A DNA stretch of 64,000 nucleotides, from positions 3,803,501 to 3,867,500 of the forward strand of contig CP126202.1 in the NCBI GenBank assembly GCA_030272155.1, in the 5' to 3' direction. The translations under genes were made by a program, and so were the position numbers. The notes under the pieces are model-generated. The model ran no database searches and had not been told where the DNA came from. It worked only from the letters and a program-made list of their open reading frames with translations. Origin of the DNA: Tetradesmus obliquus. Its lineage: Eukaryota; Chlorophyta; Chlorophyceae; Sphaeropleales; Scenedesmaceae. Shown in pieces: positions 989 to 63,974 of this stretch (the first letter of the stretch is position 1; every line of letters begins with the position of its first letter).

Positions 989-2938
989 ACAGCACAGCAG
1001 ACATGCCACACTGTAGGTGGGGCAGAGCCAGGCAGTCGCACTGGCCTGCACTGCACACTGCATGTCTCTGTGTTGGGCCCTGAGCAGGAACAGGCAGCCG
1101 TGTGCGTCTGTGTGCTTGCCTGCCTGCTGTGAACCAGCTGCTGTGCCTCACTGCTGCCGCTGCTGCTGGCCGTGCTGCTGCTGTAGGGGCGAGGTGTGTG
1201 TGCGGGGCCCCAGTGTGTTCCGGGGCTACCACAGGGCCCTGCAGGCCACAGCGCAGGCGCTGGACAGCCAGGGCTGGCTGCACACTGGCGATGTGGGCGA
1301 GTGGCTGCCTGGGGGGCGGCTGCGGCTGATAGATAGGTGCGCTCAGGCTTCTCTGCAGCTGCCATACTGCGTTGCGTTCTATGTCGCTTGTATGTTGTTT
1401 ATGATGCTTGTTTGATAGACTTGTGGCCGGTGTGACAGTTTGCAGGGCTGCTGCGTGTTACTGCATGGAGTGAGCGTGTTGTCGATGCCTGGGATGACGA
1501 TGATAGACCTGTGGCAGGCTGTGGCAGTGTGCAGGCAGCTGTGTTTCACTGCTCAGCCAGCGTGCTGTTGATGCCTGGGATGGCTCAGCACGCCTGCTGC
1601 ACCCTGCTCAACCTCATCCCGCCTCCATACCCTAGTTTCATTCAGGACACTGTACACATGTGCCTGCTCTTCAACTGACTGTACCTGCTGAACCCTCTCC
1701 CCACATGATGATAGACGGCTGCTGCATCTCGTATGCATGGTCACTCCATGCCCTGCCATGCCTTGTTTGCCTCGTTCTTGTGCTGCCTGCCCTCCTGCTG
1801 TGCTGCAGGGAGAAGAGCCTGTCAGGGAACAGTAGCGGCTCTGCAACTGATCACACTTGCCAAAGCTGTTCTCCTCCTGTCCCTGCTTCAGGTACTCCCC
1901 TCTTGTTGAACCTGCGCTTCCTCTGCCATGCCTTGCCTGTGTTTGACGTTGTGCTGCCGGGCCTGCCGCAGGAAGAAGAGCCTGTCAGGGGTTGACCTTG
2001 TCCCTCCTCTGCCCTGCCTTACTTTGTGCTGCCGGGCCTGCTGCAGGAAGAAGAGCCTGTTCAAGCTGGCGCAGGGCGAGTACGTGGCACCAGAGCGGCT
2101 GGAGGCGGTGTACGCCAGGTGGGGCGCGACAGGACAACCCTCGTGTATGCATCATCATGTTAACCATCAAACCATGGCAACAACGCCATCGGCCCCGCGC
2201 CCCACTGGAGCGGCACCCCTCGTGTGTTGTGTTGACACTGTTTCTGACAGAACATACACTGGCAGCACTCCATGTACTGGCACAAGTTGCTTGCTACACA
2301 GTTGGCGCTTGCGGCAGCAACCCCCAGAGCTACGGCATACTGCACATCAGCTCATGCGAGGGAAGAGCAACGGATGCAGTGCCGGCGTGCTCTGCATGTG
2401 CAAGCGTGTGTGACATGTTCTCCAGATGACATGCCATTGTGGGAAAAACACTGCAGCACCACAGCCAAGGACATGCTGCAGCTGACGCCTATGTTACTGG
2501 CTCCTGCTGCTTGTGCTGCGCTGCTGCCGCTGTACCCCGCTGCTTTGCAGGAGCCCGCTTGTCCTGCAAGTCTTTGTGACTGGCGACAGCCTGCAGCAGC
2601 AGCCAGTGGCAGTAGTGGTGCCAGACCCTGAGGCCCTGCAGCGCTGGGCGGCACAGCACAGCACACAGCACAAGCTGCAGGGCATGCTTGACTTGTGTGC
2701 TGAGCCGGCTGCAGTGCAGGCAGTGCACGGCAGTCTGCTGCAGCAGGCGGCTGAGACAGGTCTGCAAGGGTATGAGGCTGTTGCTGGAGTGGTGCTGGTG
2801 CCACAGCCATTCAGTGTAGAGAATGGCTTGCTGACGCCAACACAGAAGCTGCGGCGGCAGGTAGCGCGTCAGCGGTTTGCTGATGCTGTACAGGCCGTCT
2901 ACCGCTCCTTGCCTGGCAGCCGGCGCAGTGAGGCATGA
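120..2938 (+). CDS. LACS: Long-chain acyl-CoA synthetase, 3' part (5' end outside window)
   Basis: Activates free fatty acids to acyl-CoA with ATP; membrane-associated in this family. Five exons join in phase: 120-215, 583-805, 1187-1336, 2047-2118, 2551-2938 (about 309 C-terminal residues; the family is usually 650-700). Motifs seen in order: LGGRVRYMTTG, then GASPIS and VEGYGMTEAG (adenylate-forming core), GEVCVRGPSVFRGY, GWLHTGDVGEW, RLIDRKKSLFKLAQGEYV (hinge and fatty-acid motif), VFVTGDS, and ENGLLTPTQKLRR near the C-terminus. The last two are typical of eukaryotic LACS. All introns are GT-AG. The intron before exon 4 holds two decoy copies of that exon's start. Start of the 120-215 exon is inferred from a CAG; it could extend upstream. 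A TGTAA lies 134 bp after the stop. Family assignment is secure; isoform and location (ER, peroxisome or plastid) cannot be told. Confidence 0.9.
1801..2060 (+). repeat. Three copies of the LACS exon-4 splice acceptor and exon start
   Basis: Copies of a pyrimidine-rich tail ending in CAG, followed by G(G/A)AGAAGAGCCTGT, occur with exon-like first bases at 1809, 1972 and 2047. Only the third continues into the conserved LACS reading frame (KKSLFKLAQGEY). The first two diverge after about 20 exon bases and would shift or stop the frame. Seen directly; interpretation as partial tandem duplications is inference. Confidence 0.8.
2138..2225 (-). mobile_element. SINE-like short element copy, reverse orientation
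   Basis: Contains the family 3' core read on the minus strand (ATGG, TTGATGG, TTAACATGATGATG) and an upstream part with CCGATGGCGTTG and a GCGGGGCC stretch shared with the 7309-7406 copy. It lies in the last LACS intron. A 9-bp CCCTCGTGT flanks both sides (2138-2146, 2217-2225), but similar bases also occur inside the 7309 copy, so this target duplication is uncertain. Confidence 0.6.
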
Positions 2939-3316
2939 CGGTGTTGCAATGGCATGACAGTTGGGTCTCAGCAGGACTTTTTTTGGCTCAGGGCTTGTGG
3001 GCCTGTCAAGCTGATACATTGCAGCTGCAAGATATGCTATGTGATAGCCTTGTACCATTACATGTATGGTCTGTAAAGGTTCAACCATCGGCCAGCAGAC
3101 ATTGACCTGTGACTGAACTGCCAGTGTGTGAAGCTTTGTCTGGCACTATTTCTGTGCTTGCAGAACGTACTAGCCTCAAGTAACTCCAATTTTCAGTACT
3201 TGAGCTATCAATGTAATGTTCAGTGACTCAATGTTGCTCTTGAACCGACCAATTGAGTTGCAACACGCACAGCATGCACAGCCTGTGCCGGGCGCATCAC
3301 TGTAGACGCCAGCGAT
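2939..3316. other. LACS 3' UTR and intergenic spacer
   Basis: No coding signal. It should contain the LACS 3' UTR, with TGTAA at 3072-3076, and the upstream region of the next plus-strand gene. T-rich compared with the coding DNA around it. Confidence 0.6.
3072..3076 (+). terminator. Probable poly(A) signal TGTAA of LACS
   Basis: TGTAA is the usual chlorophyte polyadenylation signal. It lies 134 bp after the LACS stop codon. Position and motif are seen; use is inferred. Confidence 0.45.
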
Positions 3317-3548
3317 ATGAGCAAGACACCAACTAATATGTTTTCAGCGTTGTCGGGCACCGAGGAGAGGGACCATAAAAAGCTAGCAAAGAAGTCTGGC
3401 GGGGCTGGCAAGCAACAGAAACAACAGCAAAAACAGCACAGGCGAGCATCTATGGGGTGTGCTGCTGATGATGAAAGCACAATGGCGTCTCGTTCGTTAG
3501 TTTAGCGTTGCGACTGGCCACCTGTGTTGGCTGACAGTGAGGACAAAC

Positions 3549-3594
<46 letters not shown>

Positions 3595-24691: not shown

Positions 24692-27600
24692 GGGTTGCAG
24701 GTCGTTGTCGGCAGCAGCTGCAAGATCCTGCGCTGCCGCAGCTGCTGCTGCTGGCAAATAGGCCGGAACGCTGTCTGGCAGCGCCGCATCAGCTGCTGCT
24801 GCTGCTTTGGGTGCATCGGCGCTGTTAGCTGGTTCCATGTCTCCGTTTGTGCTGGGCACCTCACCACCACCACCATCAGCTGCTGCTGCAGCTGCTGCTG
24901 CGGGACCTGCTGCTGCCTGGCTATCGGAAGTTGGCAGCTCAGCAGCGGTCTGTGTAGCTGCAGTGACTGCAGCAGCAGCTGCTGGCACAACCACAGCATC
25001 AGCCTGCGTGCCCACATCCACAGACTGTGCACGTGTTGTGCTGTCGCTGCTCGCTGCTTCTCCTGCTGCTGGGTCTGCTGCTGCTGCCGTTACTGGCTGC
25101 TCTGCTGCTGCTGCTGCTGCTGCGGCGGCTGCTGCTGCTGGAGGGCTCAGTTGTGATGCCAGCAGCTGTGGCACCTGCGGGTTGACTGCAAGGAAGCCCT
25201 TCAGCAAATCCAGCAGCACATGCTGCTGCTGCTGCTGGCCGTCTGCTTCTGCACCAGCAACACCTGCTGCTGCCGCTGCTGCAGCTGCTGCTGTGTCAGC
25301 TGTGGGTGCTATCACCCCCTGCTGCTCCAGCTGCTGCAGGAACTCCCCAAACACCTGCACCAGCAGCTCCTGACTGCCCGCCTGCCTGCTGGCCTGCTGG
25401 TGCAGCTGCTGCAACTGCGACACCTCAGCAGTCACTGCTGCCAGCTGCTTCTGTACTGCAGCAGCAGTGATGGCGTCACCAGCGGCACCGCTGCTGCCAC
25501 GGGCAGCAAATGACTCCTTGAGCTGCTGCACAGATGCCAGCAGCAGCTCTGCTTCCTGCTGCTGCTGCTGCAGCTCCGCTGGTGATGCTGCTGGTGCCCC
25601 TGCAGCGCCTGCTGCTGCTGCTGCTGCTGCTGAGTCCTTCAAGTGCTGCACAGCTGCAGCCAGCTGCTGCACCTGCTGCTGCCACACACTGCTGCTGCTG
25701 TCAGGGCTGCTCTCAGCCAGCTGGTCAAACAGCTGCTGCAGTGTGGTGACGGAGCTGCTGACAGTGTCTGCCTGCTGGTCAATAGCCCTGGCATCCACCG
25801 CCTGCTGCTGCTGCAGCTGAGGCTGCTGCTGGGGCTGATCGCCTGCTGCAGCAGCTGTGTTATTGTTGAGGGCTGCTGGCAGCGCTTTGAAGGTCACATC
25901 CTGCAGCAGCAGCGGCAGCAGCCAGTAGCAGGCACAGCAGCGTGCACAACGGCATTCGATGCAGCAACGCAGGTGCATCAGGTGTACTCTGCCAAAACAG
26001 GGCAGCATGCAGGATGCGACGTGCACGCCTCCCTTACTCACATTCACTGCACCTCTCCCTACGCAACAAGAGTAAACCACCCACAATTTGCGTGTCACAC
26101 GAAGGGAACATAGCCCATTTTCGAGCCAATGACAGGCACATTGCGCAACCACCTGTGACATTAGCCATTTACTCAATCTGACCAGATGTGACTCTATAGC
26201 ACACTGGCATGCTGCACTATGGCAGCCCACCTGCAGCCGTCCCGCGTAGTTGCCCTTGAGCACCGCCACAGGCTGCAGCGGCTCCTCAACAACAGAGCCG
26301 CCGCCGATGCTGCCGCCCCCTGCTGCTGCTGCTGCTGCTGCCTCACCAGGCGCTGAGCTGCGGATGACCCTGAAGCCAGCCCCCTGGCGCACCACCACCT
26401 CCGCACTGACATTATCAGCAGGGCCCTGATGTCCTGGCGGCTTGTCTTTGTCCTGCAAGATGCTTGCTGCTGAAGCCTCCTCCTCAGATATAATGCTGTT
26501 GAAGGACTTGACCTGCCGCTGCACGCCCGCCTGCTGCTGCTGCTGTTGGTGCTGCGCCACCGCGGCGCTGTCTGCTGGGAGCTTGCTACCGCCCCCGCTG
26601 CTGCCGCTGCCTTGCTGCGGTGCGGCAGTGTCACCTAGCATGCTGCTGCTGCTGCCCTGCGCCGCTGCTGCTGCCGCTGCTGCGTCGAGCTGGCTGCCTG
26701 TTGACTGGCGGGGCGTCCTAGCTGTGCCACTGTCAGAGTCAGCGGGGCCTGGGGGGCCCTTGAACTGCAGCGGCGCGTCCTTGCCCCGGTTCTCATCCTG
26801 CAGGCAGCAGCAGCAGCATTGCCAGAACAATGTCAGCATTGACAGCAGGGCATGTGCAGTGCAAGCAAGTAACTTGGCTGTTGGATGTTACAAGCTTGCA
26901 CCTCTGCTTGTGCATCATGCTGCACAGGCCGCTGGCCAGCTTTCAGGACAACAAAAGCGCCAGCAGCAGCTGCTGCGTACTGGCCCTGCCAGCCCGCCAC
27001 CTCACACACAACAGCAATTCTGTGTCGAAACACCCAGAAACACAGTCATCTCACCAGCAGCACGGTCACATCGGCCCAGAAGGCAGCCATGGCCGGGTCC
27101 ACGTTCATGTGTGCCCTGTACTGCTTCTCCAGGTCAAGCAGGCCACTCTTCAGTGTGAAGTTCTTGGTGGTGTACGACTGCTTCAGCTCGTCGCTCAAAA
27201 ACTGCAGTATGCATGCAGCAGTCAGGCAGGCACAGCACTTTGGCTAAAATGAAATGCAGCGTGAAGTTCTTGGTGGTGTACAGCTGCACCGGCTCTCAGC
27301 TGCTGCACCTTCTTGTTGCTGTTGCTGCTGCTGCTGCTGCTGCTGCTGGCATCTGCACCACCAACCCATGACCTCTTCCAACACGCACCTGCACCTGCTT
27401 CTCCAGCTGCTGCACCTTCTTGTCGCTGCTGCTGCTGCTGTTAGTGCTGCTGCTGCTGCTGTTACTGCTGCTGCTGCTGCTGCTGGCATCTGCCCCACCA
27501 ACCCATAACCTCTTTTTTTTTTTTTTTTTTTACAACGCACCTGCACCTTCTTCTCCAGCTGCTGCACCTTCTTGTCGCTGCGCAGCGCCTCCAGCTCTCC

Positions 27601-28740
27601 CTCCAGGCTGCGGATCTTCTCGTTGAGCTTGCGTGCCACGCTGGGCCGCAGGCTGGCCTCGTCACGCGCCTGCGGCATAGCCAGGTGGTGGTGAGCAGGA
27701 GGCAGGAGACAGGCGCAGCCAGCCATGCGGCAGGCAAGCAGGAAAAGCAGTGCGGCACAAAAGCGTGCGCCGATTGCGAGGCAGTGTGCAAGGGAAGGGG
27801 CTGGCGCAGCAAGCTGCTGGAGCTGGGGCTGTTGGGACACACAGCATGGCACATGCGCTGTGCTGTTGGGACACACAGCATGGCACATGCGCTGTGCTGT
27901 TGGGACACACAGCATGGCACATGCGCTGTGCTGTTGGGACACACAGCATGGCACATGCGCTGTGCTGTTGGGACACACAGCATGGCACATGCGCTGTGCT
28001 GCCAAGCACTGCTGCTCCAGAGCAGTATGTGCAGTATGTTGAGAAGGGCAGGGTAGGTGCACCAGTGGAAAGGAACAAGCCCAGACGCACAAGGCTGGCA
28101 GGGAGCAGCATATGGAGAGCGTGCAAGGATACATATTGTGCCGTTGACACACAGCAGGCTGTATGTCCAGGGGCAGCAGGATGATGCAGCTGCTGCGTGT
28201 GGCTGGTGCAGGATGGGTTTGCTACAGCAGAGGGATGCCGTTGACACAAGCGGCACTGCTGTTGCTGAGATGAAACCGCAGCAAGTACACGGGCTTGATG
28301 CTTACGCAGTCTAGCCTATCACTGCCCTGCCATCATGACATTGCGCGCCTTGCCAGCAGTGTCTGTGCCAACTCTGTATTACATAGCTGCAGCTGCTGCC
28401 GAACGCCCCACCCTTCTTCTTGCGCTACTAGGGTTGCAAGACAGTAGCCACAGCAGCAGCTTGTATGGTTCACCTGCTGCAAATCCTCCCGCAGCTGTGC
28501 CTGCTGCTTGAGCTCATCCTTTGCAACCAGCAGTAATTGAGCATCGACTTCCACGCGATCTGATTCTGACTTGCCCTGCAGAAATCATAAGGCACTGCTG
28601 TAAGCAGCAAGCCCTTGTGCTTCTGCAAGTCCTTCATGGCTTCACAGCAGGACTAGATCGGTCTTATTAAACAGCTATACAGGCCCTTCGTGTACCTCAC
28701 AGCTGGCCTCCAGAGCCTGCAATAGCTCCTGGAGGTTCAT
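22068..28740 (-). CDS. Large low-complexity coiled-coil protein
   Basis: Ten exons, about 1075 aa, every junction in phase: 28696-28740, 28474-28575, 27541-27669, 27055-27201, 26231-26797, 24352-25900, 23808-23857, 23424-23522, 22898-22997, 22068-22507. Start MNLQELLQALEASCE. Coiled-coil segments: DAQLLLVAKDELKQQAQL, KLNEKIRSLEGELEALRSD, ELSKLRADNLELAASLQ, VTQSLVQHLNTNMKVAID and a final ELMKLLRNLRRAVENP. Between them SYTTKNFTLKSGLLDLEKQY and MAAFWADVTVLL look constrained. The two big exons are Gln/Ala-rich. C-terminus is Ser/Ala/Gly-rich. Cytoskeletal, basal-body or scaffold roles would fit coiled coils; there is no diagnostic domain. Introns around exons 3-4 contain duplicated exon ends. Confidence 0.75.
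27250..27583 (-). repeat. Duplicated exon-3 end with splice donor, plus an exon-3/exon-4 chimeric fragment
   Basis: The real exon end (KKVQQLEKKVQ, donor GTGCGT at 27540) is repeated downstream at about 27394-27425 as KKVQQLEKQVQ with its own GTGCGTG donor. Both are followed by related intron sequence (GAGGTTATGGGTTGGTGG and GAGGTCATGGGTTGGTGG). A third fragment at about 27255-27310 joins AACAAGAAGGTGCAGCAGCT to a copy of the exon-4 piece coding YTTKNFTL. Confidence 0.75.
27513..27531 (-). repeat. Poly(A) tract in sense orientation just inside an intron
   Basis: About 19 T on the plus strand, so A-rich in the transcript, nine bases after the exon-3 donor. The duplicated donor copy lacks it. 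Confidence 0.85.
27832..28001. repeat. 34-bp minisatellite, five near-perfect units
   Basis: Units start at 27832, 27866, 27900, 27934 and 27968 with TTGGGACACACAGCATGGCA. They lie in the intron between exons 2 and 3 of the coiled-coil gene. No spacers between units. Confidence 0.9.
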
Positions 28741-37137: not shown

Positions 37138-37168
<31 letters not shown>

Positions 37169-37586
37169 CGGGCCCTGCTGAGCCAGTAATCGCCTGCTGC
37201 AGTGCAGGCTTCAGAGCAGCAACACACCCCAGCAGCGGTAGTGCAACTTTCGCTGATAAGTTCCGCTTGCCTAGCACCAGTTGCCAGGGCTCGCCAGCAC
37301 TGCTGTTGCTGCTGATGCTGCCATGCGCTGGTGCTGCAACAATGCCTGGCTGCTCGTGCATCTGCAGCAGCGCACTGCCAGCTGCATGCAGTGCGCGACC
37401 CAGCAGCAGCACGACAGCTGAATCAGCATCAGCTGCGGCAGCACTGGCCGGAGCACCTGCACATGTGCCAGCAGTGCTGCTGCTGCTGCTGCCGGCGCGT
37501 GCTGCTGCTAACGGGGCTAAGTGGTTGCCAAGCTCTGCACATAATGCCGGAGGCGGGCCGCGTGCTGCTGCTGCCGCCACAGCCAC
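36690..37586 (-). pseudogene. MYND paralogue copy C, 5'-truncated
   Basis: Open frame of 298 aa covering GRALHAAGSALLQMHEQPG, LLGCVAALKPALQQA, and a complete MYND finger (CCANPGCTSL to HKQVCAL). Compared with copy B it lacks the whole armadillo exon and the first ~150 residues of exon 2, including the LLPEQRGLW block. Homology ends near 37570, where sequence belonging to the inverted copy D begins after about 130 bp. It may still be expressed as a short MYND protein; truncated pseudogene is my preferred reading. Confidence 0.6.
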
Positions 37587-37716
37587 GGCCGTACAGGCAG
37601 CATCCTGAGCACCTGGAACCTGGAACCTTTGATCGGATGCCCTCGAGTTGTCATTGAGGTGTATATTTTGTGGTGTTCACACATGTTGCCTGTGTGCCGC
37701 ACACCGAGCTGCGCAG

Positions 37717-38481
37717 GCGACGTGAGGCTGCTTGCGGCCAGCTGTGGCAGCAGCCCAGCAGCAGCAGCAGCAGCACTGGAGGCAGCAACCAGGCTACTGG
37801 CGCCACAGCTGATCAGCAGTTGCCTTCCTGAGCCTGCTGGCGGGCCAGCCGGCCATGAACTGATGGGCTTGCCCGTGTCTGTGGCAGCAGAGCTGCGCCA
37901 GCGACGCGTGCAGCAGCAGCTGCTGCCAGAGCAGCGAGGCTTGTGGCTTACCTCCCTCAAGGTGGCAGCAGCAGGGCTGGGCGGCTGGCTGCCTCCGCTG
38001 CAGGTGCTGTCGGCGGTACCGTGACTTATGCAAGGTGTTTGCGGGTGTGGAGGTCGCTGGACTGAAGGTGATGGCTGCTACCCTAGCAGCTCAGACTGGC
38101 GTGCCTGAAGCAGTGTGTCTGGCCGCAGCGGCAGAGGTAGGCAAGCAGTTTGACTCGACAACAGCAGCTGGCAGCGGCAGCAGCGGCAGCAGCACTGCTG
38201 GCACAAGTGGTGACCCAGCTGGCGTGCTGCTGCTGGGCCGCGCACTGCATGCAGCTGGCCGTGCGCTGCTGCAGATGCATGAGCAGCCAGGCACTGTTGC
38301 AACACCATCAGATGGCACAGCAGCAGCAGCAGCAACAGCCCTGGCCAGCCATGGCGCGTGGCAGGAACAGAACAGGCTTCTGCTAACCTCCTGTCAGTTG
38401 TGATCGCAATGCCATTGCTGGGGTGTGTTGCTTTGGTGCAGCCTGCACTGCAGCAGGCTGTTACGGCCTCAGCAGATGCTG

Positions 38482-38519
<38 letters not shown>

Positions 38520-38978
38520 TCTCTGGCTGCATCACAGCAGTCTGTTAGGGACCTGCTGCACCTGCAGCGGGAACTGCAGAGCGCACTGGCCGCTTGCGAT
38601 GTGGCACACCTTGGCGACGGCAGCAGCAGCAGCAGCAGCAGCACTGACGGAGCGCAAACGGCAGCGGCTGAAGCTGAACTGAAGGCTGTGCTCACAGCTG
38701 CTGTTGCGCGCCAGCTGGTGGCGCTGGGCAGCGGCGTGTGTGTGCAGCTTGCAGCTGGGCAGCACTGGTGCTGCGCCAACCCTGGCTGCACCTCCCTGGC
38801 TGATGCATCTGAGCGGCAGCTGGTGGCTGGCAAGGGCACCGTGTGCAGCGCCTGCAGGAGTGTGCGGCTGTGTGGGCCTGCCTGCAACAAGGCCTACTGG
38901 AAGGCGGGGCACAAGCAGGTGTGCGCCCTGTTCAAGCAGCGCAGCAGCCAGGGGCAGGCAGCTGCACAGCAGCAGTAA
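37717..38978 (+). pseudogene. MYND paralogue copy D, inverted, with two frameshifts
   Basis: Starts at a preserved exon-2 acceptor (GCGCAG before GDVRLLAASCGSS) but has no armadillo exon upstream. Frame runs through LLPEQRGLWLTSLKVAAAGL to a TGA at 38022-38024. The homologous peptide (DLCKVFAGVEVAG) continues in another frame from about 38023, as if one base had been gained. A second shift between about 38366 and 38400 moves the frame again before AMPLLGCVALVQPALQQA. The MYND finger is intact. Missing exon 1 plus two shifts indicate a pseudogene unless the assembly has base errors. Confidence 0.7.
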
Positions 38979-39582
38979 CACGTGATGGCTGCCAGAAGCG
39001 ATGGCGTGATTAGTAATTCTTGGATTTTCTGCACATGCATGGCTGTGTGGTGTCTTCTGGTTTTGCACATTCTTGCTAGTAGCCTACTAGGCTACCTGGT
39101 ACTAGTCCCCAGGAGCCGGGAGGAGATGCTGAGATCTCCATGCCGCGTGGCCCGCAGTTTGATGCTGGGCTCCCGGAGCCATATATACCACTTCCCAATA
39201 GTATTTGGTGGGCCTGCGGCCCTACCTTGCTACCTTGGTAAATGCCACACTGTCATTGTCGCGGTACCCGGCACGCTCGCGGTCCAGTGCAAGGTTGCTG
39301 GTAGTGAGGTTTGTGCTGCTGTGACTTCAGTCATGTGGATGAACGGCATCAGTGACTGCTGCTGACTGGCAGATCATGATGTAGTGTTACATGACGGAAA
39401 AGCGCCTCATTAATATAGAGCACAACGCAGATCTGATGCGCACCCACCCAATGCGGGTCAGCTGTGGGCACACTGACACCATGGTGTACTTGTGTGCTGC
39501 CCAGCCGTGTCGCTTCACAACACCATCGCGGCTGTCAAACGTAAACAAGGGCTGGCGCGCATGCGCACAGCAAACACAGCAT
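38979..39582. other. Spacer between convergent genes
   Basis: Lies between the 3' ends of MYND copy D (+) and the membrane protein gene (-). TGTAA on the minus strand at 39388-39392 is a fair poly(A) signal for the latter. No coding sequence seen. Confidence 0.45.
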
Positions 39583-42500
39583 TCAAACATTGGGGTACAC
39601 GTCAGCCACTGAGATGCCAGGCAGCGAGCCAGTGCCGCCACTGCTGCCCAGCACCCTGCCGCTCCTGCTCTGCTGGTAACCCCCTGCCGCAGCAGGAGCC
39701 CCAGCCGCTGACGTTGCTGCCGCTGCTGCTGCAGCGCCAGTTGCTGTCGAGGTTCTTCCACCCTGCGCTCCTCCCAGCTGCCTCGCTGCTGCTGCTCTGT
39801 AGCCGCCAGCTGCTGTGCCGCCTCCTGCAGCACCCAACGCAGCATTCAGATCACCGCTGCCAGTGCTCTGCCGATTTGCCAGCTGCAGCTGCTGCAGGGC
39901 ACCCTGACCAGGGTGTGGCGAGGCCTCGCCAGATGCCGTGCTGAAGTTGCTGTGCATCACGAGCGTAGATGGCAATGCATGCGGAGATTGCAGAGACTCC
40001 TGCGGTCCCAGCCCCTCTACTGCTGGGGGTAGGAAGCCAGCCATACGCCCCACTGTGCTCCACACAGTGCGGATCTTATCCGACATCAGGAAGTTGCCTG
40101 CTGCAGCATCCGCGCCTGCTGCTGCTGCTGCTGCACTGCCTTCCTCAACGTCCCGGTACGCCATAGAGCTGCTGCTGCGAGGTAAGGGAGTGCCGCTGCC
40201 GCCGCCGGCAGCAGTGTTGTTACCGCGCTGTGCGGCTGGCTGCTGGGCCCCTGGCGGCTGCTGCTCCGACTGCTTGAGCAGCGTGACTGCTGTCTGGAGG
40301 CTCCTCAGCAGCTCGTCCAGCTGCTGCACCTGCACGGTGTGTGCAGAGACAGACAGTGGACGAGTGAGTTGCAGATCAAAGAACAGGTGCTTCAGAGTGT
40401 GACGTTGGACCAGCATGCCGACACGCAGGCAGCTGCCCCATGCCAACCTGAAATGCCAGCGGGCACAGCCGCCATTCCTGCTCTTTACCCCCCCCCCCCC
40501 CCCCCCCCGCCGCCCCCCCATCATCGACACCCACCTGGGGCCCTGTCATTGCCTCGCTCATGGCCCTGTCGCTGGACATGAGCCCAACCCAACCAGGGGG
40601 ACACACCAAGGCACCTGCTCCTGTTACTGGTGCTGCCCTCCAAAACACACCAACTGCTGCTGCCAGCGCTGTGCACCAACAGCATGCAGACACAGGAAAC
40701 TCAAGGCGCAAGCCCTCTCTACAGCACCAGCAGCCAGTGCACCCCATCCTCTCCCCAAAGACACGCACCTGTGGGCCTGTCATGGCTTCGCTCATGGCTC
40801 TGTCGCTGGACCTGTTGAGGCAGCGCACCAGCAGCAGCCCGCCAAACAGCACCACCACCAGCCCCAGGTTGGCACCCACAGCGATGCCAAAGCTCACAGA
40901 TAGAGCCAGGCCAGCACCAGCATGCAGCCACCAGTGCTGCTACAGCCCTTTCCACAGCGCCAACGGTCACTCCACCCAAGCACAAACACCCCACACGCAC
41001 CTGTGGGCCTGTCATGGCTTCGCTCATGGCTCTGTCGCTGGACCTGTTGAGGCAGCGCACCAGCAGCAGCCCGCCAAACAGCACCACCACCAGCCCCAGG
41101 TTGGCACCCACAGCGATGCCAAAGCTCACAGATAGAGCCAGGCCAGCACCAGCATGCAGCCACCAGTGCTGCTACAGCCCTTTCCACAGCGCCAACGGTC
41201 ACTCCACCCAAGCACAAACACCCCACACCCACCTGTGGGCCTGTCATGGCTTCGCTCATGGCTCTGTCGCTGGACCTGTTGAGGCAGCGCACCAGCAGCA
41301 GCCCGCCAAACAACACCACCACCAGCCCCAGGTTGGCACCCACAGCGATGCCAAAGCTCACAGATAGGGCCAGACCAGCACCAGCATGCAGCCCTGCCAC
41401 CAGTGCTGCATCGCCTAGGGCTACCATGGTGGTTAGCAGGAAGCACACGCTGCAGTGCACCAGCACGCGCGCGCTGGCGGCAGCCACGTTGCTCTGGACC
41501 GCCCTGCGAAAAGAAAAGGTAGCAGGGAAGGGCATGGGATGGTATGTTTGTGGCAGTGCTGGTTTGACAGCAATGCAGCGGCAGACACGTTGCTGGAACG
41601 CCCTGCAGAGAGAAGAAGAAGGAAACGGCAGCGCGGGAGTGGCATGGGACAATCTGGTTGCGGCAGTGCTGGTTGACAGCGAGACAGCAGCAGCCACGTT
41701 GCTGTAGACCGCCCTGTGGAAAGAAAATGGGGCGTGGGAGTGGCATGTGGCAATCTGTTTGCGGCAGTGCTGGTTTGACAGCAATGCAGCGCCAGCCACG
41801 CTGCTCTGGACCGCCCTGCGGACAGGAGAAGCGACAGGCAGCGTGGCAATGGCATGGCCATTAGTGCATACAATTCGACTGCAGGTGTGCGAGTCTGGCG
41901 GCAGTGCAGTGCCATGAGCATTGAACAAAGCTTGCTGCTATTTGCGTGGTCGACAGGCTATGTTACACTTAAGAGCAACAGCCAGCAGGAGGGTGCGCAC
42001 CAAACACAGCCGCCTGCATCCACCTGCACTTCAAGGCTTTGGCTTTCAAGATGCAAAGCCTCCAAAAAACCAGCAGTACGTGCGCATCTACATACATTGT
42101 GTGAGCAGCCAGCAGCCAGCCAGCCCGCACCTGGCAAGCTGGCCAGCAGTTGAAGTGAGCGCCTCTGTAGGTCCAGGCCCGGCTTTGGCTGCTGCATCTC
42201 CCACTGCTGCTGCCTGGCCTTGCTGCTGCTGCTGCTGTTGACCCAGCTGGGCTGCGTCCACCTCATCGTCTGCTGTAAACCGCTGCAGCTTGCTGAGTAA
42301 GCGCTTACTCACAGCTGAGTTGCTCAGCCTGTGCCTACCTGCAGGACCTGACAAGCCTGTTGAGGAACCTGCTGTTGCTGCTGCTGCTGCTGTTGGGCTC
42401 TGGCCTGCTGACAGCAGCGGCTCTACTGCTGCTGATGTCATTGAGCCTCCTTCAGAGTTATTGGGGCTGTAGAACATGGATGAGTCATTGGTCGCACCAT

Positions 42501-53404: not shown

Positions 53405-53463
53405 AACTACTTGGGCACCGAGCTGCCCCTGCTGCGCCAGCACCATAGGTCACCCCACTGCAT
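53405..53463 (-). repeat. Partial duplicate of the METTL17 terminal exon including its stop codon
   Basis: Minus strand reads QWGDLWCWRSRGSSVPK then TAG, against QWGDLWCWRSRGSPK TAG at the real 3' end. It begins only at the QWGD codons, so it is a tail fragment. Confidence 0.75.
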
Positions 53464-54762: not shown

Positions 54763-56380
54763 AACTGCGTCCGCAGCATCTGCTGTGCCTGCAGCTGGCT
54801 GCGTTTGACTTGTCTTGGCTGCCACCTGTGGCTGCAGCCCATCCCCTGCACCTGACGCCCAGTCGACACCTGCAGCACAGCAGCCAGGCATTATTCACCA
54901 CCGTCTTCATTGTCAGCAGCAGCATGTGGAGTTTCACCAAACACGCCAGCAAAACATACCTCGGCATCCTCAGCAACATGCGTGGCTCACAGTCAGGATG
55001 TTGTACCAACACATCGAGCCTGTCAGGTGCACTTGTGCTCAGGGCCTGCGGCACATGGCAGCACTGCTGGTCTGGCATGACATCCAGCTGGCACTGCCAC
55101 CCTACCAACCACCACAGGGACACGCCGACCTGTAGATCTTTGCAAGTACCGCAACCCAATAACCGTCACCAGGACTGGCGAGAGCTCGATGCTGGCTTTT
55201 AGTGTGTTGTTACACATTTTGTTATTATGTTGTTATAACATCAACACTAACACAGCACCCCACCTGCATCCTCCAGCGCCATCAGTCGGTCAACCAGCCC
55301 CTGGCCAAAGCCATCCAGCTTGGCATTCACACGCTGGAAGTGACCACCGCCCTCTGCTGCTGCTGCTGCTGGCGTCTGATGCTGCTGCTGCTGCTGCTGC
55401 TGCTGCGGGAGTGCGTCTCCAAGCAGTGCTGACAGCTGCTGCATCTCAGAGGCGGTGAACAGGCCCTCAGCAGGAAGCGATGCACCTGCTGCTGCAGACT
55501 GCTGCTGCTGCTGTGGAGGCTGCAACTGTGCTGAGACAGCATGCAGCACCTGCTCCTGCTGCTGCTGCTGCTGACTCCAATCAGGCTGCTCATTCTGGCT
55601 GCTGCTGGCTGGGTCAGGGCTTGCATTATGTAAGTGGCCCTGCTGCAGCTGCTGCTGCATGGCTTGCTCATCGTGCTGCCGCTCCTCTAATTCTTCATCG
55701 CTGCTGCTGCTTCTATCAAAATGCAGCAGCTGCTCCTCTGCTGACTCAGTGGCAGCAGCAAACACGTCGCTGCTGCTGCTGCTGGCTGGTGCAAAGCTCC
55801 TGCTGATGTCAACCGTAACCGCTGCAGCAGGCCGCACGCCACGCCTGCGGCAGCACAAGTCGTATGACAAGGTGCAAAGCAGCACAGCAGCACAGCAGCA
55901 CAGGCAAGCACAGGGGTCAGAGAATGCTTGTGTTCAGCAGCACAGCCCGCGAGGAGAAGTTACCTTTCATAGCATCATAGTGCAGTGTAATTGCATTGCA
56001 TTGCAGTGCATGACACAGCAGCAGCTGTGTGTAGCCCATGACTCACTTCCTGCCAGCTGCACTGCTGCTGATGCATGCCAGCAGAGCCTGCGCACCCCAG
56101 CTCTTCATCATGCACAGCAACACCCAGTCTAGTCAGCGTCAGAAGCATCCAGTCAGCCCCATGTCACTCGCTCTGCTGCTCATTTGCTGCCAGTTCTCGA
56201 CTCACCGCAGCACCACGTAGCTGTAGCATTCATCCTCGTGACTCACACCACTGCTCATCATCTGTCAATCAGTCTGCTACATTTGCTGCCAATCGTCAAC
56301 TCACCGCAGCACCACGTAGCTGTAGCGCTCGTCCTGGTGGTCTGCGGGGTTGACATGGCTGCCCGGCAGCGCCTTCGCGG

Positions 56381-56444
<64 letters not shown>

Positions 56445-57126
56445 GCAGCAAGGCCGGCGCACATCATCAGGCACACGACACTACGCAAGCGCGGGCATCC
56501 AACACCCAAAACCACACATAAGATATATATGCGCTGCCTGCACAAACAACCCTATGGTTGCAACAAAAGCCTGTTCATTGCCCATGTTTCTCGCACCTGC
56601 ATGAGGGCTGGCTGCTGGAAGGGGGTGCTGAAGTGGCACCAGGCCTTTGCCCCAGGGCCTGACAGCGGGGGCACACACAACATCCACACACCAGATGCAA
56701 GCACTGCGTCTCATCACAATTTCCTATACGCTGCGCTCGGGCCCCAAAGTGCAAGACAGTGCTGCCGACCGCACCTGCATGAAGGCTGGCCGCTGGAAGC
56801 GTGTTCCAAAGTGGCACCACGCCTTAGCCCCAGGGCCTGACAGCGGGCAGCGCCCGTCATGCGGGCAAGGGGCCACCACATGCGCCCCATACCACTTGCT
56901 GCCTAGCTTAGATGCCAGGTTGGGGTCAAACCCCTGCTGCTGCTGCTGGTCGGTGGGTAAGCTGTTGCTGTCAGTGTCAGCAGCAGCAGCAGCAGCAGTG
57001 CTGCGTCGGTGCAGCTTGGCTGCCCTGCGTGCCTCATGCAGCAGCACTGCATCACGTGCCTCCAGTATGTTGGCATGGCCAGCTGGCGTGCCGGGCTCAA
57101 CAAGCACCAGCAGCCCAGAAGTTAGG

Positions 57127-57165
<39 letters not shown>

Positions 57166-57428
57166 TATGTGAGTGCCCAGCTGGCGTGCCTGGCTCAACA
57201 AGCACCAGCAACTCAGAGGTAAGGCCTGACGGCAGCAGCAGCAGCAGCAGGTGTGCGAGTGCCCAGCTGGCGTGCATGGCTCAACAAGCACCAGCAGCTC
57301 AGAAGTCAGGCCTGGCAGCGGCAACGGCGGCAGCAGCAGGAGCAGCGGCAGCAGCAGCGGCAGCAGGTATGTAAGTGCAGCTGGCGTGCCCGGCTCCACT
57401 AGCACCAGCAGCTCAGAGGTAAGGCCTG

Positions 57429-57464
<36 letters not shown>

Positions 57465-57869
57465 GCAGGTGTGTGAGTGGGCCTCATGTAGCAGCACTGC
57501 ATCACGGGCCTCCAGTATGTTGGCATGGCCAGCTGGCGTGCCCGGCTCAACCAACACCAGCAACTCAGAAGTGAGGCCTGGCAGCAGCAGCAGCAGCAGC
57601 AGCAGGTATGCGAGTGCCCAGCTGGTGTGCCCGGCTCAACAAGCACCAGCAACTCAGAGGTGAGGCCTGGCAGCAGCAGCAGCAGCAGCAGGTGTGCGAG
57701 TGCCCAGCTGGCGTGCATGGCTCAACAAGCACCAGCAGCTCAGAAGTCAGGCCTGGCAGCGGCAACGGCGGCAGCAGCAGGAGCAGCGGCAGCAGCAGCG
57801 GCAGCAGGTATGTAAGTGCAGCTGGCGTGCCCGGCTCCACTAGCACCAGCAGCTCAGAGGTAAGGCCTG

Positions 57870-57905
<36 letters not shown>

Positions 57906-58106
57906 GCAGGTGTGTGAGTGGGCCTCATGTAGCAGCACTGCATCACGGGCCTCCAGTATGTTGGCATGGCCAGCTGGCGTGCCCGGCTCAACCAACACCA
58001 GCAACTCAGAAGTGAGGCCTGGCAGCAGCAGCAGCAGCAGCAGCAGGTATGCGAGTGCCCAGCTGGTGTGCCCGGCTCAACAAGCACCAGCAACTCAGAG
58101 GTGAGG

Positions 58107-58142
<36 letters not shown>

Positions 58143-60630
58143 TATGTGAGCAACAGCACTGATTTGCAGCCACGCCCAGCCATCGCCCCTGGTAACCCCT
58201 TCCCCGCCCAGCAGCCAGCAGCAATCAACACACACGCAGGTAACATCCCCTGCAGCCAACACCTGTCCCCCTCTCCCTTTGCCCCCACTCACTCCACAAG
58301 TGTCGGACCAGCTCTGCTCGTTGCTGCCGACTTGCTATCTCCCCAAGCACAGAGCTGGCCACCACCAGGTCAGCCCCATACAAAAACATCACATTCATAA
58401 CCGAATCAAGATGGTGCTATGCACAAAGCCAGCCACTTTTATTTCAACAGGAGCCAGTAGCAGCAAGCAGCACGCTCACAATCAGCCACCACACGCAGCC
58501 AACAACCGGCCCTCCCCCATCCCAACTCACTCCACAAGTGGCGAACCAGCTCCGCACGCTGTTGCGGACTTGCCACCTCCCCAAGCACATAGCTGGCCAC
58601 CACTAGGTCAGCCCTGCTGCTGCTGCTGCTGCTGCTGCCCTGGTTGGCTTTGCGGCCCTGCAGCGGAGGTGGCAGCTCGGCGCGCCAGCGCACCTGCAGC
58701 ACGAGCAGCAACATGTGTGCAGGCACAGAGCAGTGCGATGAGGACGTACACAGGCACAGAGCAGTGCGATGAGGACGTGATGTGTCTGGTGCTCATGCTG
58801 GGGTGGCTGTGTGAGACGGCGGCTGGCTCAGCTGCAACAGCAGCTGCGATACTGCTACCCCTTAAGCTGCAGCACTGCAAGCGCGGCAGCACTCGCCAGT
58901 GCTGCTGCCATGCACGCAGGGGTCGCTGGCTAGGAGAAATGGCTGTGCTTCTCTGCAGAGCATGTGGTGGTGGCAACAGCAGAACCTCATGCACATTGCA
59001 TCCTTGCTGCGACTGCTGCTGCTGCTGCGCCTGCGCGCTGCTGTTGCCGTGGAAGCAATACCCCTGGCGCACCAGTGGCGCGCTAATCAGCAGCAGTAGT
59101 ATGTAGAGCATCAGTTACAGTGTGAACCCACCAGTGGTGCACTGGCGTGTGCGAAGCGGCGTGCCGCCTCCAGCCGCTCCCCCAGGCGCCGCATTGGTAA
59201 GGAGGACTCGACAGCAGTTAGCCGGGTCAAGTGCTCTGGCCACACCTGTATAGCACAACACGCATAGCAAGCACATGTATGCAAGAATGTCCAGCACATC
59301 ATGTCGCTCGCCCAGTCGCCGCATTGGTAGTGACGGCTCAACAGCAGTCAGCCGGGTCAGGTGCTCTGGCCACACCTGCCTACAATGCAGATATGCAGCA
59401 CCACATGAGCTTGACTGACAGCACAGGGGAAGCCCAGTACCATCTCGCAACACATTGCCACACTGCGGATGCTGCAGCGACCCAACCAGCACAGCAGCAC
59501 AGCACCCACAATAGCACAGCAGCAGCAGCAGCAGCAGCCCTGCACTTCCTGTGCGGCCCAGCTGGCAGTGCCAGGCCCCGCACCAAAGTCAAGCAGACTC
59601 CTGCGGAGAAGCCCAGCCGGGCAGCCGGCCCCATTGCACTATACATGCCACAATGCGGATGCTACAGCCACCCAACAAGCACACTGCACTACGCCACCGC
59701 CGCACTCACAGCCACAACATCCCCTCATGCACACAACATTGAACATGCTTGATGTCACAGCAGCATGAGCAGCAGCAGCAGCAGCAGCAGCAGCCGCCCC
59801 TGATTCCCTGCCGCACCTCCTGTGCGGCCCAGCTGGCAGTGCCCGGGCCCGCACCAAAGTCCAGCAAGCTCTTAGGGGACCAGCCAGGCAGCCGCAGCCG
59901 CAGCTCGCTGAAAATGCGGCTGCAGGCGGCGTAGCAGCCCGGCAGCCGTGCCAGCGCATAAGCCAGCGCCTCGCCTTCGTTGTATGCTGGGGTGGCCTGC
60001 ATGGATGCGTTTGACAGAGGTTTGTTGTGAGAGCATGTGATGGCAGACAGTGACATTGTAGTGATGGAGGAAGAAAGCTCGCCACAGATGCGGCTGCAGG
60101 CGGTGTAGCAGCCCAGCAGCCGTGCCAGTGCGTTGCGCGTAGGCTGGCACGCGCTAGCGCCTGACCGTCATGGTAGGCAGGGGTGGCCTGCAGAACAGGG
60201 TGTGTGAGCGTGTGTGAACGCCAACGATTGTGAGAATGTATGGAGGGGCGGGGAAGAAAGCTTGTTTGTCCGCAAATGACGATGCGGCGGCAGGCGGCGT
60301 AGCAGCCCGGCAGCCTTGCTAACGCATAAGCCAGCGCCTCGCCTTCGTTGTATGCTGGGGTGGCCTGCGCGAAAGAGGTTGTTGGATGTGAGCGCATGCG
60401 AAGGCAGACTGGCAGACTGGCCGCATGATGATCTTTCTATGCTGGCGCTGAATGGTGCTGCCTCACTGCTCACACTGCCTCACAGTGCCTCACCTTTTTC
60501 AGGGCCAGGTTGCGCTGCGGGCTGTCCAGGCTGGCGCTGGGTGGCAGGTCCAGTGCTGCTCTCAGGTGCTCATGCGGCACCGCCAGGCTGCCGTGTACTG
60601 CGATGTGCTCCAGCAGCGCTGCCTTGGCCT

Positions 60631-60665
<35 letters not shown>

Positions 60666-61091
60666 GCTGTCATTAAAAGGGTGTTAAAATAGCTGCTCAA
60701 CTACACAACTGCAGCACCTCCTTCGGCCTGTGCTCATGCTTCTGCCTCTGCTGCTGCTGCTGCTGCTGCTTTGTGTGCTAGCATCTCTGAGTCGCTGCTG
60801 CTGCTGCCACTGCTGCTGCTGCTGTCACTGTGGCACTGCTTCATACCTTGCTTTGAAACGCCCGCCCTTGTTGGTGGGCAGCGCCAGGGCAGCCGCCGCC
60901 TCTTCTCCACATTATACCACAAGAACACACTGTCAAACTTCTCACTTCTGCAGCTGCCGGAGGATCACCCGCACCTTTGTTTTCAGGCGGCCGCCCTTAG
61001 TTGTGGGCAGGGCCAGGGCAGCCGCCGCCTCTGCTGCTTCACGCGCCCTCCTGTGGCGTGCCAGCGCCTCAGCACCAAAAGAGGCAGCCAT

Positions 61092-61147
<56 letters not shown>

Positions 61148-61588
61148 GGCGTTGGTGAGGCACACCCAACACAAGCAAAGTTTGCACTGCAGCTAGTGCG
61201 TGCAGCGTACGATTTGGCCACACAGTAGGCAATTTTCATGTGCTGATGTCTGTGCTTTGCAGGACAGCCACCAAGCAGAAATGCAACCGCTGCAGAAGCA
61301 AGTGCTTGGGCAGCGCTCAACAAGTAACAGATAACAAGTAACAAGTAACAAGGTCACACCTGCTCCAGCTCAGCCTCCATCTCCGCCTGCTCCTGCAGCT
61401 GCTCAGCCGTCATGCCGCCTCCCGGCTGCTGCTGCTGCTGCTGCTGCTGCAAGCTGCTGCCCTGCTCAGCATTGCTGTTGCGGTAGGGCTGCAGGCCTCC
61501 CCTTGCCTGTGAGCGGCTCAGCGCCTTGAGCTGTTCTGTGAGGGCCTTGCTGCGCAGCTTGGCGCGCTTGCCTGTGAGCCCGGCCTCT

Positions 61589-61630
<42 letters not shown>

Positions 61631-61739
61631 GCGGCGGCAGCAGCAGCAGCAACAACAACAAAAGCTCAGCGCCTTGAGCTGCTCTGTGAGGGCCTTGCTG
61701 CGCAGCTTGGCGAGCTTGCCCGTGAGCCCAGCCTCTGGC

Positions 61740-61771
<32 letters not shown>

Positions 61772-62155
61772 AGGCAGCATCTCAGAGCCTTGAGCTGCTC
61801 TGTGAGGGTCTTGCTGCGCAGCTTAGCACGCTTGCCGGTGAGCCCGGCCTCTGCAGCAGCAGCAGCAGCAGCAGTAGGGTAGGGACAGACAAGGTGGTTG
61901 ATGCTAGGCGACAGCATTGTTGCATACTTGAGCGCGTCCGTTTGTTCCCAAGCCAGCTCTAGAGCAGCAGTAACGGTTGCATGTGTACAGCAAAGGGATA
62001 ATATACCACCAATGCCATGAGCTGCACCCGTGAGAACGTGGTTGCCCAGCACCTGTCAACTGCTGTGGCGCTCAACGGCCTACAGCAAATCTGATGCAAG
62101 GCCACCACGGCAACTGAACACGGCATAGAGCTGCGGCACATTGCGCGGCCCGTCC

Positions 62156-62205
<50 letters not shown>

Positions 62206-62418: not shown

Positions 62419-62449
<31 letters not shown>

Positions 62450-62529: not shown

Positions 62530-63020
62530 TGTATATTGCTATTACTCGAAAGCAGCAGGAGCATCGCCATGGTTGAGTCAGCCGGCGGCACAGAGTGCTG
62601 CTGCAGTCACACTTGATGTTGCGCCATGCTCCAAACGATCTTCTGGGTTTGATGCGATTGACTTGTATCAGTTCACTTAGTATATTGTTGCTTTCGTTTC
62701 AATGTAATCGCCATGTTTAGGAACTGTTACTATCAAGGGAACACCGGACTTTCAAAAAGTAATGCAGCGGCGAAGCGTGCTTATGATATCGTCATGTTTT
62801 CTCTTGAAATTACATAGCCAAAATTGCGTGCTGTTTGCCAACCACGATTCGCACGATCACCCCCGTACCACCCAACGTCCAAAGCTGATGCCTGACCTTG
62901 GATACGCAATGATGCGTTACAGACGTAGCTTCTTCATAAGCACGGTCAGCGGTGTGCAGGCCTTCGCATGCTCTTCAACCCTCGACGCCGCATCACGCTT
63001 TGATTGCCAACAACAGCAGT
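62530..63020. promoter_or_regulatory. Divergent promoter region of METTL17 and peroxiredoxin
   Basis: 491 bp between the two inferred start codons on opposite strands. AT-richer than its surroundings near 62680-62760. No specific element identified; based on orientation. Confidence 0.4.
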
Positions 63021-63974
63021 ATGCTGACCATCTGCAGTGCACGTGCTACAGCCAGGCCTTGCGCGAACCGCAGCTTCGCTGCTGCACCCAAGCCCCGCCT
63101 CCGTGTGAAGACAGCATTCATGGGCGAGCAGGTCGACCTGTACAGCAATGGTGAGCTGCTGTTGCTGTGTGCAGGCTGTATCACCCTGCTGTTGATGCCA
63201 GGCGGGGCAGCAGCGCATTCGCATGCACCCAGCCAGCTACTGCTGCTGCACATGCACCGGATCAGGTGCATTCTGCAAGTGATGGATTGTGCGATGCTTC
63301 GAAGCAGTATGTGACGCGCAACACAGCAGATTCACAACTGCTGTTGACCGTGGTAAGCCAGCCGAGCAGAGTTGCTGTGCGCAAGTGACACGCACAGCAA
63401 TGCGCAGCAATGCGCATGCGCAGTTGCCATTCACTGCCACAGGTGCCGCACACCAGTCATCGCTGCAGAGCCACACATATACCTGTTTACTCAAAACCTT
63501 CTGCAACAGCACAACAGCACACGTTGAACTGTCAGGATGCCCACAAAATGACTGGATCTTCCCTTGCTTCCCCTGCCACCCACCCACCAACCCCTGCTGT
63601 ACTGTGCCTATCTGCCCTGTCAGGCGTGTTTGACTTCAAGCAGTCGCCCCGCATCAAGCAGGGCAACACGCTGCCCCTGGACACGCGCTGCCAACATTAC
63701 CTCTGCACCGCGCTGCTGCCCGTCCCCCCATGCTTCCCAGGTCCTCTGCCGGCCCCGAGTTGTTGCAACTTAAGCCTGCCTGCTGCCTTTTCTGTCTCTA
63801 TTTGACTCATTGCAGGCGTGTTTGACTTCAAGCAGTCGCCCCGCATCAAGCAGGGCGACAGCCTGCCCCTGGACGAGACACTGATGGTGCTGGAGGAGGG
63901 CTCCAGCGAGCCCAAGTCGGTGACATTGAAGGAGCTTGTTGGAGGCAAGAGGGCAGTGCTGTTCGGCCTGCCAG
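63021..63974 (+). CDS. Type II peroxiredoxin, plastid-targeted, 5' part (continues beyond window)
   Basis: Thiol peroxidase reducing H2O2 and alkyl hydroperoxides. Exon 1 63021-63150 and exon 2 63816-63974 join in phase. Exon 1: MLTICSARATARPCANRSFA, Arg/Ser/Ala-rich without acidic residues, looks like a chloroplast transit peptide; then TAFMGEQVDLYSNG. Exon 2: VFDFKQSPRIKQGDSLPLDE, TLMVLEEGSSEPKSVTLKEL and VGGKRAVLFGLPG, the segment just before the peroxidatic Cys loop of PrxII (Cys itself lies in the next exon, outside). This pattern matches the PrxIIE group. The donor at 63975 is GTGAGC. Intron 1 contains a decoy copy of the exon-2 start. Confidence 0.85.
63624..63690 (+). repeat. Decoy copy of the peroxiredoxin exon-2 acceptor and start
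   Basis: CAG followed by GCGTGTTTGACTTCAAGCAG and about 40 more matching bases (to LPLD), then diverges. The real exon starts at 63816, 192 bp downstream. The decoy is open in the same phase up to a possible donor near 63740. Confidence 0.85.

Follow-up and report, generated by a model that had tools for sequence, protein, structure and literature searches.

The window analysed here is a 64,000-nucleotide stretch of the nuclear genome of the green alga Tetradesmus obliquus (C12:3803501-3867500, from an assembly of 104.66 Mb in 17 contigs). It encompasses genes for LACS, a coiled-coil protein, a membrane protein and METTL17/Rsm22, whose introns carry partial copies of the edges of the adjacent exons. 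Such copies were the subject of the original prediction, and every copy named there that was checked is present, in these four genes and next to the exon starting at position 63816. Across three sequences, comprising the window, a 200-kb stretch of C1 (2.0-2.2 Mb) and 50 kb of C5 used as a held-out sample, an exon-edge copy was found in the adjacent intron at 49 of the 517 trusted splice junctions, on donor as well as acceptor sides.

METTL17 lies on the minus strand between 53.8 and 62.5 kb of the window and displays copies at nine junctions. Its hand-joined exon translation matches the Pfam family Rsm22 (1.2e-45), and its homologs among the matches include proteins of Monoraphidium and Elliptochloris. 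The features of this gene are the following.

53405..53461, minus strand: weak copy of the 3' end of the METTL17 coding sequence, downstream of the predicted stop (84% with gaps)
56162..56240, minus strand: donor-side copy, exon 56305-56381
56592..56669, minus strand: donor-side copy, exon 56775-57127 (88% over 78 nt, gapless)
57171..58106, minus strand: acceptor-edge array, nine further copies of the LTSxLLVLVEPGTPAG edge of exon 56775-57127
58252..58370, minus strand: donor-side copy, exon 58531-58693 (84 nt edge, eight synonymous and three nonsynonymous differences)
59305..59378, minus strand: acceptor-side copy, exon 59132-59245
59544..59595, minus strand: donor-side copy, exon 59817-59996 (92%), at a junction also copied in the relative P0105
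60088..60319, minus strand: older acceptor-side copy, exon 59817-59996 (67%, gapped)
60282..60368, minus strand: acceptor-side copy, exon 59817-59996 (83 of 87 bases, near-random flanks)
60848..60906, minus strand: donor-side copy, exon 60975-61091 (83%), with the GT displaced by one base
61666..61729, minus strand: acceptor-side copy of the edge GLTGKxAKLRSK, exon 61360-61586 (95%)
61781..61846, minus strand: second acceptor-side copy, exon 61360-61586 (91%, five synonymous differences and one nonsynonymous)

The edge array of this gene is part of a nested array (57031-58132) in which a 441 bp unit is present 2.5 times with 96% matches and holds 86-114 bp subunits bearing the METTL17 edge; four of the nine edge copies exactly repeat four others by way of this unit. 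One synonymous site of the LTSxLLVLVEPGTPAG edge carries all four bases among the exon and its copies. At the VEPS/VESS position, the 59305-59378 copy keeps the residue found in the homologs P0001, P0003, P0004 and P0007, as judged by eye at the protein level. METTL17 is single-copy in this genome; a paralogous donor of its copies was considered and rejected, as none was found, and an exchange partner of the copies is therefore not a paralog.

The relative P0105, a METTL17 read-through on a metagenome contig that is known as protein only, carries the edge PGFAPKSLLDFGAGPGTASWAAQEV at the exon and twice beyond it, whole or decayed, at a donor that is also copied in the window; something similar therefore occurs outside this assembly. 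When 236 METTL17-like proteins were considered for internal repeats (13 scored), only P0105 had them at this exon edge, and the read-through of other algae is short (ten proteins, for example). P0002, a transcriptome-derived METTL17 of another alga, ends in unrelated residues shortly after the edge AAQEV, as if the intron there had been retained. For one METTL17 stretch, matches elsewhere in the genome (the best 40 of 511 scored, without clustering by family) fall in many cases on its simple-repeat parts, others being short or of low identity.

The copies in the other genes of the window are as follows.

879..933, plus strand: LACS donor-side copy of the end of exon 394-805 (source 783-839; 81%), with a third copy from 989
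1801..1822, plus strand: LACS acceptor-side copy of the start of exon 2047-2118 (exon 4; 21 of 22 bases)
1905..1985, plus strand: second LACS acceptor-side copy, exon 2047-2118, with 56 nt of intron also matched (full-unit type)
27386..27415, minus strand: coiled-coil donor-side copy of the end of exon 27541-27669 (41 exon bases, one difference)
40761..41393, minus strand: membrane-protein tandem array, a 232 bp unit present 2.7 times over exon and intron (99% matches by Tandem Repeats Finder, TRF), units 1 and 2 being identical and the third partial
41578..41857, minus strand: membrane-protein acceptor-side copies in units of about 101 bp, carrying the edge of exon 41233-41503
63621..63682, plus strand: acceptor-side copy of the exon starting at 63816 (59 of 62 bases)

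The hand-joined translation of LACS matches the Pfam family AMP-binding (7.6e-17). No Pfam match was obtained for 60 amino acids of the exon at 63816, named a peroxiredoxin in the original prediction.

The junctions were those predicted by an ab initio gene finder self-trained on the window and the 200-kb stretch, with homolog support for METTL17 only and Pfam support for LACS; once trained, the gene finder recovered the splice signals CAG/GTGAG and TGCAG/G. The window served as the discovery sample, and the model and thresholds derived from it and the 200-kb stretch were applied unchanged to the held-out 50 kb; coordinates given for the 200-kb stretch count from its own start. The G+C content is 57-58% across the sequences examined; for the species, a genome of 108 Mb, 57% G+C and a mean intron of 462 bp are the values given in the text of PMC5966456. 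Repeats were called by self-comparison after masking of simple repeats, the scoring having been replaced when long low-identity blastn matches (+1/-1) were judged to be driven by composition. For each junction only the best copy was kept, provided that at least 14 of its 20 edge bases matched (16 of 20 for the edge profile), exons scoring below 6 or shorter than 40 nt were excluded, and copies overlapping another trusted exon did not enter the junction counts.

Counted in this way, copies were present at 13 of 94 junctions in the window, 24 of 349 in the 200-kb stretch and 12 of 74 in the held-out sample; one of the 13, junction 57867, is probably an array copy miscalled as an exon by the gene finder. 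The original prediction held that copies are too numerous to be incidental, and this is borne out beyond the window: 48 of 521 repeat ends lie within 6 nt of a trusted junction, against a mean of 10.7 and a maximum of 25 in 1000 rotations. The window contributes 20 of these (null mean 2.8, maximum 11; 1000 rotations) and the held-out sample 12 (mean 2.5, maximum 8), while the 200-kb stretch, the weakest alone, contributes 16 (mean 5.5), a number that its 1000 rotations reached as their maximum. Under a local null, in which each pair was shifted by 30-200 nt, the mean was 18.9 and the maximum 33.

In a typical pair, one copy ends at the exon edge plus a few intron bases, and its partner lies in the adjacent intron. 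Over the 20 edge nucleotides, the exon side is 92-95% identical for donors and 89-92% for acceptors (45 copies with at least 16 of 20 matches), and the intron side of the same copies, aligned without gaps, is 86-88% identical over the first 5 nt and about 50-65% over the next 10. The duplicated exon pieces measure 12-84 nt. Some copies are full tandem duplications in which the intron half matches too, and such whole-unit matches occur at a minority of loci, for example 62979, 101024 and 122457 of the 200-kb stretch. A GT or AG is kept at the matching position in 43 of the 49 copies, about the expectation for neutral copying, and is lacking in six (four among the 37 of the window and 200-kb stretch and two held-out; one has GC and two have a GT one base off). 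The exon-interior ends of the 37 copies of the window and the 200-kb stretch show no consistent GT or AG splice signal, as judged by eye; some array copies, such as held-out 25430 and 25888, may be exceptions with splice sites at both ends. Two copies lie past the end of a coding sequence and not in an intron, the weak one at 53405-53461 of the window and a clean one at 87584-87648 of the 200-kb stretch. The latter, with 87358-87422, repeats the last 63 coding bases and the stop of a predicted gene 226 bp downstream, and its four differences from the gene end are all synonymous (by eye). At 100274-101085 of the same stretch, an acceptor edge and its intron part are present seven times with a spacing of about 125 bp, and the copies alternate in type (1 like 6, 2 like 4 and 3 like 5, by eye).

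The nuclear genome often produces local tandem duplications with a unit of mostly about 100-140 bp. Self-comparison yielded 43 direct-repeat pairs for the window and 67 for the 200-kb stretch, all with a spacing below 600 bp. Per million base comparisons, pair density was 1.26-2.43 in the window and 0.30-1.33 in the 200-kb stretch at distances of 1-300 bp, and 0.012-0.031 and 0.017-0.020, respectively, at 4-64 kb, so that direct repeats are about 15-200 times denser at short range in both. Spacing has its mode at 100-140 bp, which accounts for 53 of the 140 pairs at 40-440 bp in all three sequences, and a second hump at 200-260 bp; the usual event therefore resembles the tandem duplication of a segment some 120 bp long. 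Among the junction copies, 23 of 37 have a spacing below 170 bp (mean 122, standard deviation 19), and full-unit and edge-only copies have a similar unit size. The suggestion that copies are a steady by-product of local tandem duplication thus agrees with a unit of mostly about 120 bp in three separate stretches. The spacing is a multiple of 3 in 9 of the 37 junction copies and not in the other 28, and a spacing that preserves the reading frame was rejected on this count.

The exon-derived part of the copies outlasts the neutral expectation and differs from the exon mostly synonymously. At 37 loci of the window and the 200-kb stretch, the exon edge and its best copy differ by 91 synonymous and 41 nonsynonymous changes (69% synonymous; locus bootstrap 60-77%), a count that leaves out the 63816 and GLTGK copies, which were scored separately. 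The synonymous fraction expected is 29% for a neutral copy and 45% for a neutral copy of an exon that itself evolves only synonymously and at an equal rate. By codon position, the differences number 28, 18 and 86 over 526, 534 and 530 sites. The held-out sample gave a weaker signal (37 of 64 synonymous, 58%; p=1.5e-6 against 29% and 0.026 against 45%), and the combined figure is 128 of 196 (65%; p=7e-9 against 45%). Gaps per mismatch amount to 0.071 between exon and copy (27/380), 0.133 between introns (86/649) and 0.064 in exon-exon columns, with 13 of the 27 exon-copy gaps coming from a single alignment (window 40526). A rough per-site divergence over the 49 loci is about 4% at nonsynonymous sites, 20% at synonymous sites and above 20% in intron flanks; these values do not fit one neutral clock, because such a clock gives about 1:2:2. 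Translation of the copies is unlikely, given the copy lying beyond a stop codon and the absence of consistent splice signals at the far ends of the 37 copies inspected.

Placement and flanks were compared with neutral survivorship by simulating duplications of 92-148 bp at random over 196 exon-intron-exon units (introns of median 349 bp and mean 416.5 bp), with copies decaying neutrally and being scored for detection nearly as in the data. The simulated ratio of junction to intron-only copies was 0.74-1.07, depending on the maximum age, and the ratio observed by hand count at spacings of 80-160 bp was 38:7 (25:6 in the 200-kb stretch and 13:1 in the held-out sample; p=1.6e-6 against 1:1 and 7e-4 against a rough 1.6:1 that allows for easier detection), a comparison that rests on intron lengths from the self-trained models. 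This count leaves out the window, pairs in arrays already counted, exons scoring about 0 and intergenic pairs, and includes an 18-nt match (98152), a called gene end (184481), one exon scoring 5 and copies overlapping small predicted exons (116774 and 190521, for example). The full-unit, young duplications of the 200-kb stretch are distributed as 5 junction-spanning to 2 intron-only (hand count), near random placement, and the excess therefore lies mainly in older, partly decayed cases. Although the numbers are small, this suggests that the junction excess reflects longer persistence more than targeted birth.

The intron flanks are also more diverged than in simulations matched for the exon part, with p<=0.05 at 14 and p<=0.01 at 8 of 40 loci (Fisher p=5e-14, with loci of the same gene not being independent), and are no better than random background at 19 of the 40; this test alone also includes three copies entered manually (116774, 63816 and 87420). 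Several copies of 36 to 87 nt are 95-100% identical to the exon with near-random flanks. At 116774 of the 200-kb stretch the copy is identical at 51 of 51 positions and flank identity is 0.49-0.53, against a random-pair mean of 0.47. At 33614, a 36-nt edge occurs four times, three of them identical (exon included), with largely unrelated spacers, two of the four sharing about 20 nt beyond the edge. The reverse is seen at 62979, where the first two spacers are identical at 52 of 53 positions (by eye) and 6 of 68 sites, all of them synonymous, distinguish the exon from its nearest copy, as expected if exon parts were exchanged separately.

The explanation that we favour, tentatively and with slightly more doubt than conviction, combines duplications of about 120 bp, survival at exon edges and exchange with diverged functional exon alleles. 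A duplication lying wholly in coding sequence would usually be removed by selection and one lying wholly in an intron would be neutral, while one spanning an exon edge would, judging from the anatomy of the copies, be tolerated, with the normal junction being made from the outer donor or the inner acceptor; the intron would then contain a spare exon edge, complete with its GT or AG, and the intronic portion of the duplicated unit would decay quickly. As long as the duplication is polymorphic, the spare edge would be as allelic to the exon edge of other chromosomes as the working edge is, and recombination or gene conversion may keep drawing it from working exon alleles that have diverged at synonymous sites. 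Such an exchange of sequence between copies and alleles is what we infer, without proof, from the pattern of differences; a spare edge recombining in this manner fits the nonsynonymous, synonymous and flank figures.

Several observations weigh against this explanation. The exchange, itself inferred, would require alleles to differ at very roughly 10-15% of their synonymous sites, a high value, and the synonymous excess of the held-out sample over the 45% null is modest when taken alone (p=0.026). At seven multi-copy loci, the changes unique to the exon are 8 synonymous and 1 nonsynonymous and those unique to copies are 20 and 25; the copies there therefore decay almost neutrally. Individual loci also depart from the pattern: held-out 36601 has 0 synonymous and 6 nonsynonymous differences, 7127 has 7 of each, all three differences of the 63621-63682 copy are nonsynonymous, and the 5:0 of locus 57867, one of the 37, probably comes from the miscalled exon noted above. 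Two copies of the seven-copy array at 101024 contain a stop codon (by eye). Flanks at 62979, 806 and 34652 reach or exceed the expected similarity, a higher mutation rate in introns could invalidate the intron clock, and the junctions rest on an ab initio gene finder.

A rival explanation is a plain neutral by-product, in which random duplications of about 120 bp would survive where the frame stays whole and junction copies, whose exon half diverges at half speed, would be more easily detected, without exchange or function. We consider this somewhat unlikely, and its version with a faster intron clock is a serious rival. It accounts for the location of copies in introns and for the full-unit 5:2, agrees with the signs of decay (the lost splice dinucleotides, the stops in two array copies and the 20:25 of copy-unique changes) and is helped by the simulations, in which 35-52% of the detected junction copies look edge-only. 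Survivorship had been offered as the null model for the window, and it stands to this extent; it fails on the ratio of 38:7 where 0.74-1.07 is predicted, on flanks overly diverged for the divergence of their exon part and on a synonymous fraction of 0.65 in place of 0.45.

A bias of duplication towards exon edges at birth, arising for instance from transcription, R-loops or GC-rich exons and followed by neutral decay, would produce both the junction excess and the concentration of repeat ends at junctions (48 against 10.7). It is improbable, since the young full-unit duplications lack a clear excess (5:2, a small number) and the synonymous excess and the copy ending at a stop codon are left unexplained.

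Copies that function as alternative exon ends, decoy splice sites or cassette exons under coding selection would account for the coding-like divergence, the depletion of gaps and the 43 of 49 copies that keep GT or AG. This is very unlikely, as the far ends of the 37 copies have no consistent splice signal for in-frame joining, 28 of 37 spacings are not multiples of 3, copy-unique changes are nearly neutral and the same pattern is seen in the copy downstream of a stop codon. The proposal of cassette exons in particular finds no support at the exon-interior ends inspected by eye, and neither does that of raw material for intron gain by a duplicated AGGT; an exitron-like reading was rejected on the same far ends.

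An assembly artefact, in which two diverged haplotypes or strains would have failed to collapse and would lie next to each other, is more improbable still. Coding-like divergence together with unalignable introns does resemble two diverged alleles, and unit sizes cluster, but functional alleles should keep their splice sites, which six of the 49 copies have not; arrays carry an edge 4, 7 or 10 times, and a similar structure is found in the metagenome contig of P0105, known from its protein. Copying bounded by the splice site, by RNA-templated repair or by an intron-like element with a long target duplication, is hardly credible: it would suit the nearly identical 36 to 87 nt copies with near-random flanks, but intron bases beyond the GT or AG are often carried along, the spacing resembles that of full-unit duplications and a stop codon marks the end of at least one copy. 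An introner model with long target duplications was likewise rejected, because intron bases are often included in the copies and spacing varies slightly less than spacer length (standard deviations of 18.8 and 23.0, a small difference). A rough, uncomputed rate argument led to the rejection of selection acting on copies through conversion load.

Elsewhere in the window, a perfect 34 bp tandem repeat (5.1 copies, 100%) lies inside a predicted intron at 27828-28001, and a cluster of related genes with a Cys-rich end occupies both strands from 29616 to 39000, two segments of which (33612-34547 and 36637-37577) are 77% identical by blastn; the Cys-rich end resembles a MYND zinc finger. Elsewhere in the genome, a 54 bp segment at C1:10005920-10005973 (L002), possibly from a paralog, matches LACS exon 4 at 87%.

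Concerted evolution, or gene conversion between short local repeats, likewise keeps copies similar to a functional one as their surroundings diverge; in the present case, the homologous segment often falls short of 80 nt, and diverged alleles, not the adjacent exon, seem to be the origin of the differences. Exon sequence is also repeated within an intron in mutually exclusive or duplicated cassette exons, whereas at most of the junctions listed here only one exon edge is repeated and its other end has no consistent splice signal. The frequent tandem duplications of about 120 bp are a form of internal gene duplication, an already known kind of process also termed tandem genomic duplication and reportedly described by Gao and Lynch in 2009 and by Hellsten et al. 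in 2011. The likeness consists in direct tandem duplication within genes, splice sites included, that is tolerated if splicing restores the mRNA; the present case differs in a unit clustering at about 120 bp, in affecting about one junction in ten and in the coding-like divergence of the copies. In its intron-gain form, an exon segment bearing AGGT is duplicated and the two sites bound a new intron, whereas here an existing junction is duplicated and no new intron is evident. As of 2012, tandem genomic duplication was stated in the text of PMC3443670 to be the only route of intron gain shown in vivo. Introners, which are intron-generating transposable elements, likewise add intron-like sequence to many genes in green algae, with target-site duplications of 3-9 bp according to the text of PMC9860276; the exon pieces described here measure 12-84 nt and each copy is local to its own exon. 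Exon-edge copies in the introns of these algae did not appear among the literature matches listed, which is weak evidence, drawn from titles and the openings of abstracts with few subscription journals covered, that they are unpublished.

A broader proposition, which we regard as doubtful, is that introns constitute a standing reservoir of partial exon edges that are untranslated, belong to the recombining allele pool of the exon and evolve as if coding, so that about one junction in ten would be subject to concerted evolution, fed by duplications of about 120 bp in a very diverse population. The unit size of about 120 bp points to a specific mutational process. If these conclusions are true, about a tenth of the splice junctions in some algae would possess a spare copy, with a bearing on intron growth and gain and on splicing fidelity, and gene annotation would be affected, as copies are easily mistaken for exons. 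Non-coding copies with a coding-like pattern of divergence would then provide a natural record of gene conversion and of hidden allelic diversity, and would caution against taking a synonymous excess as proof of translation.

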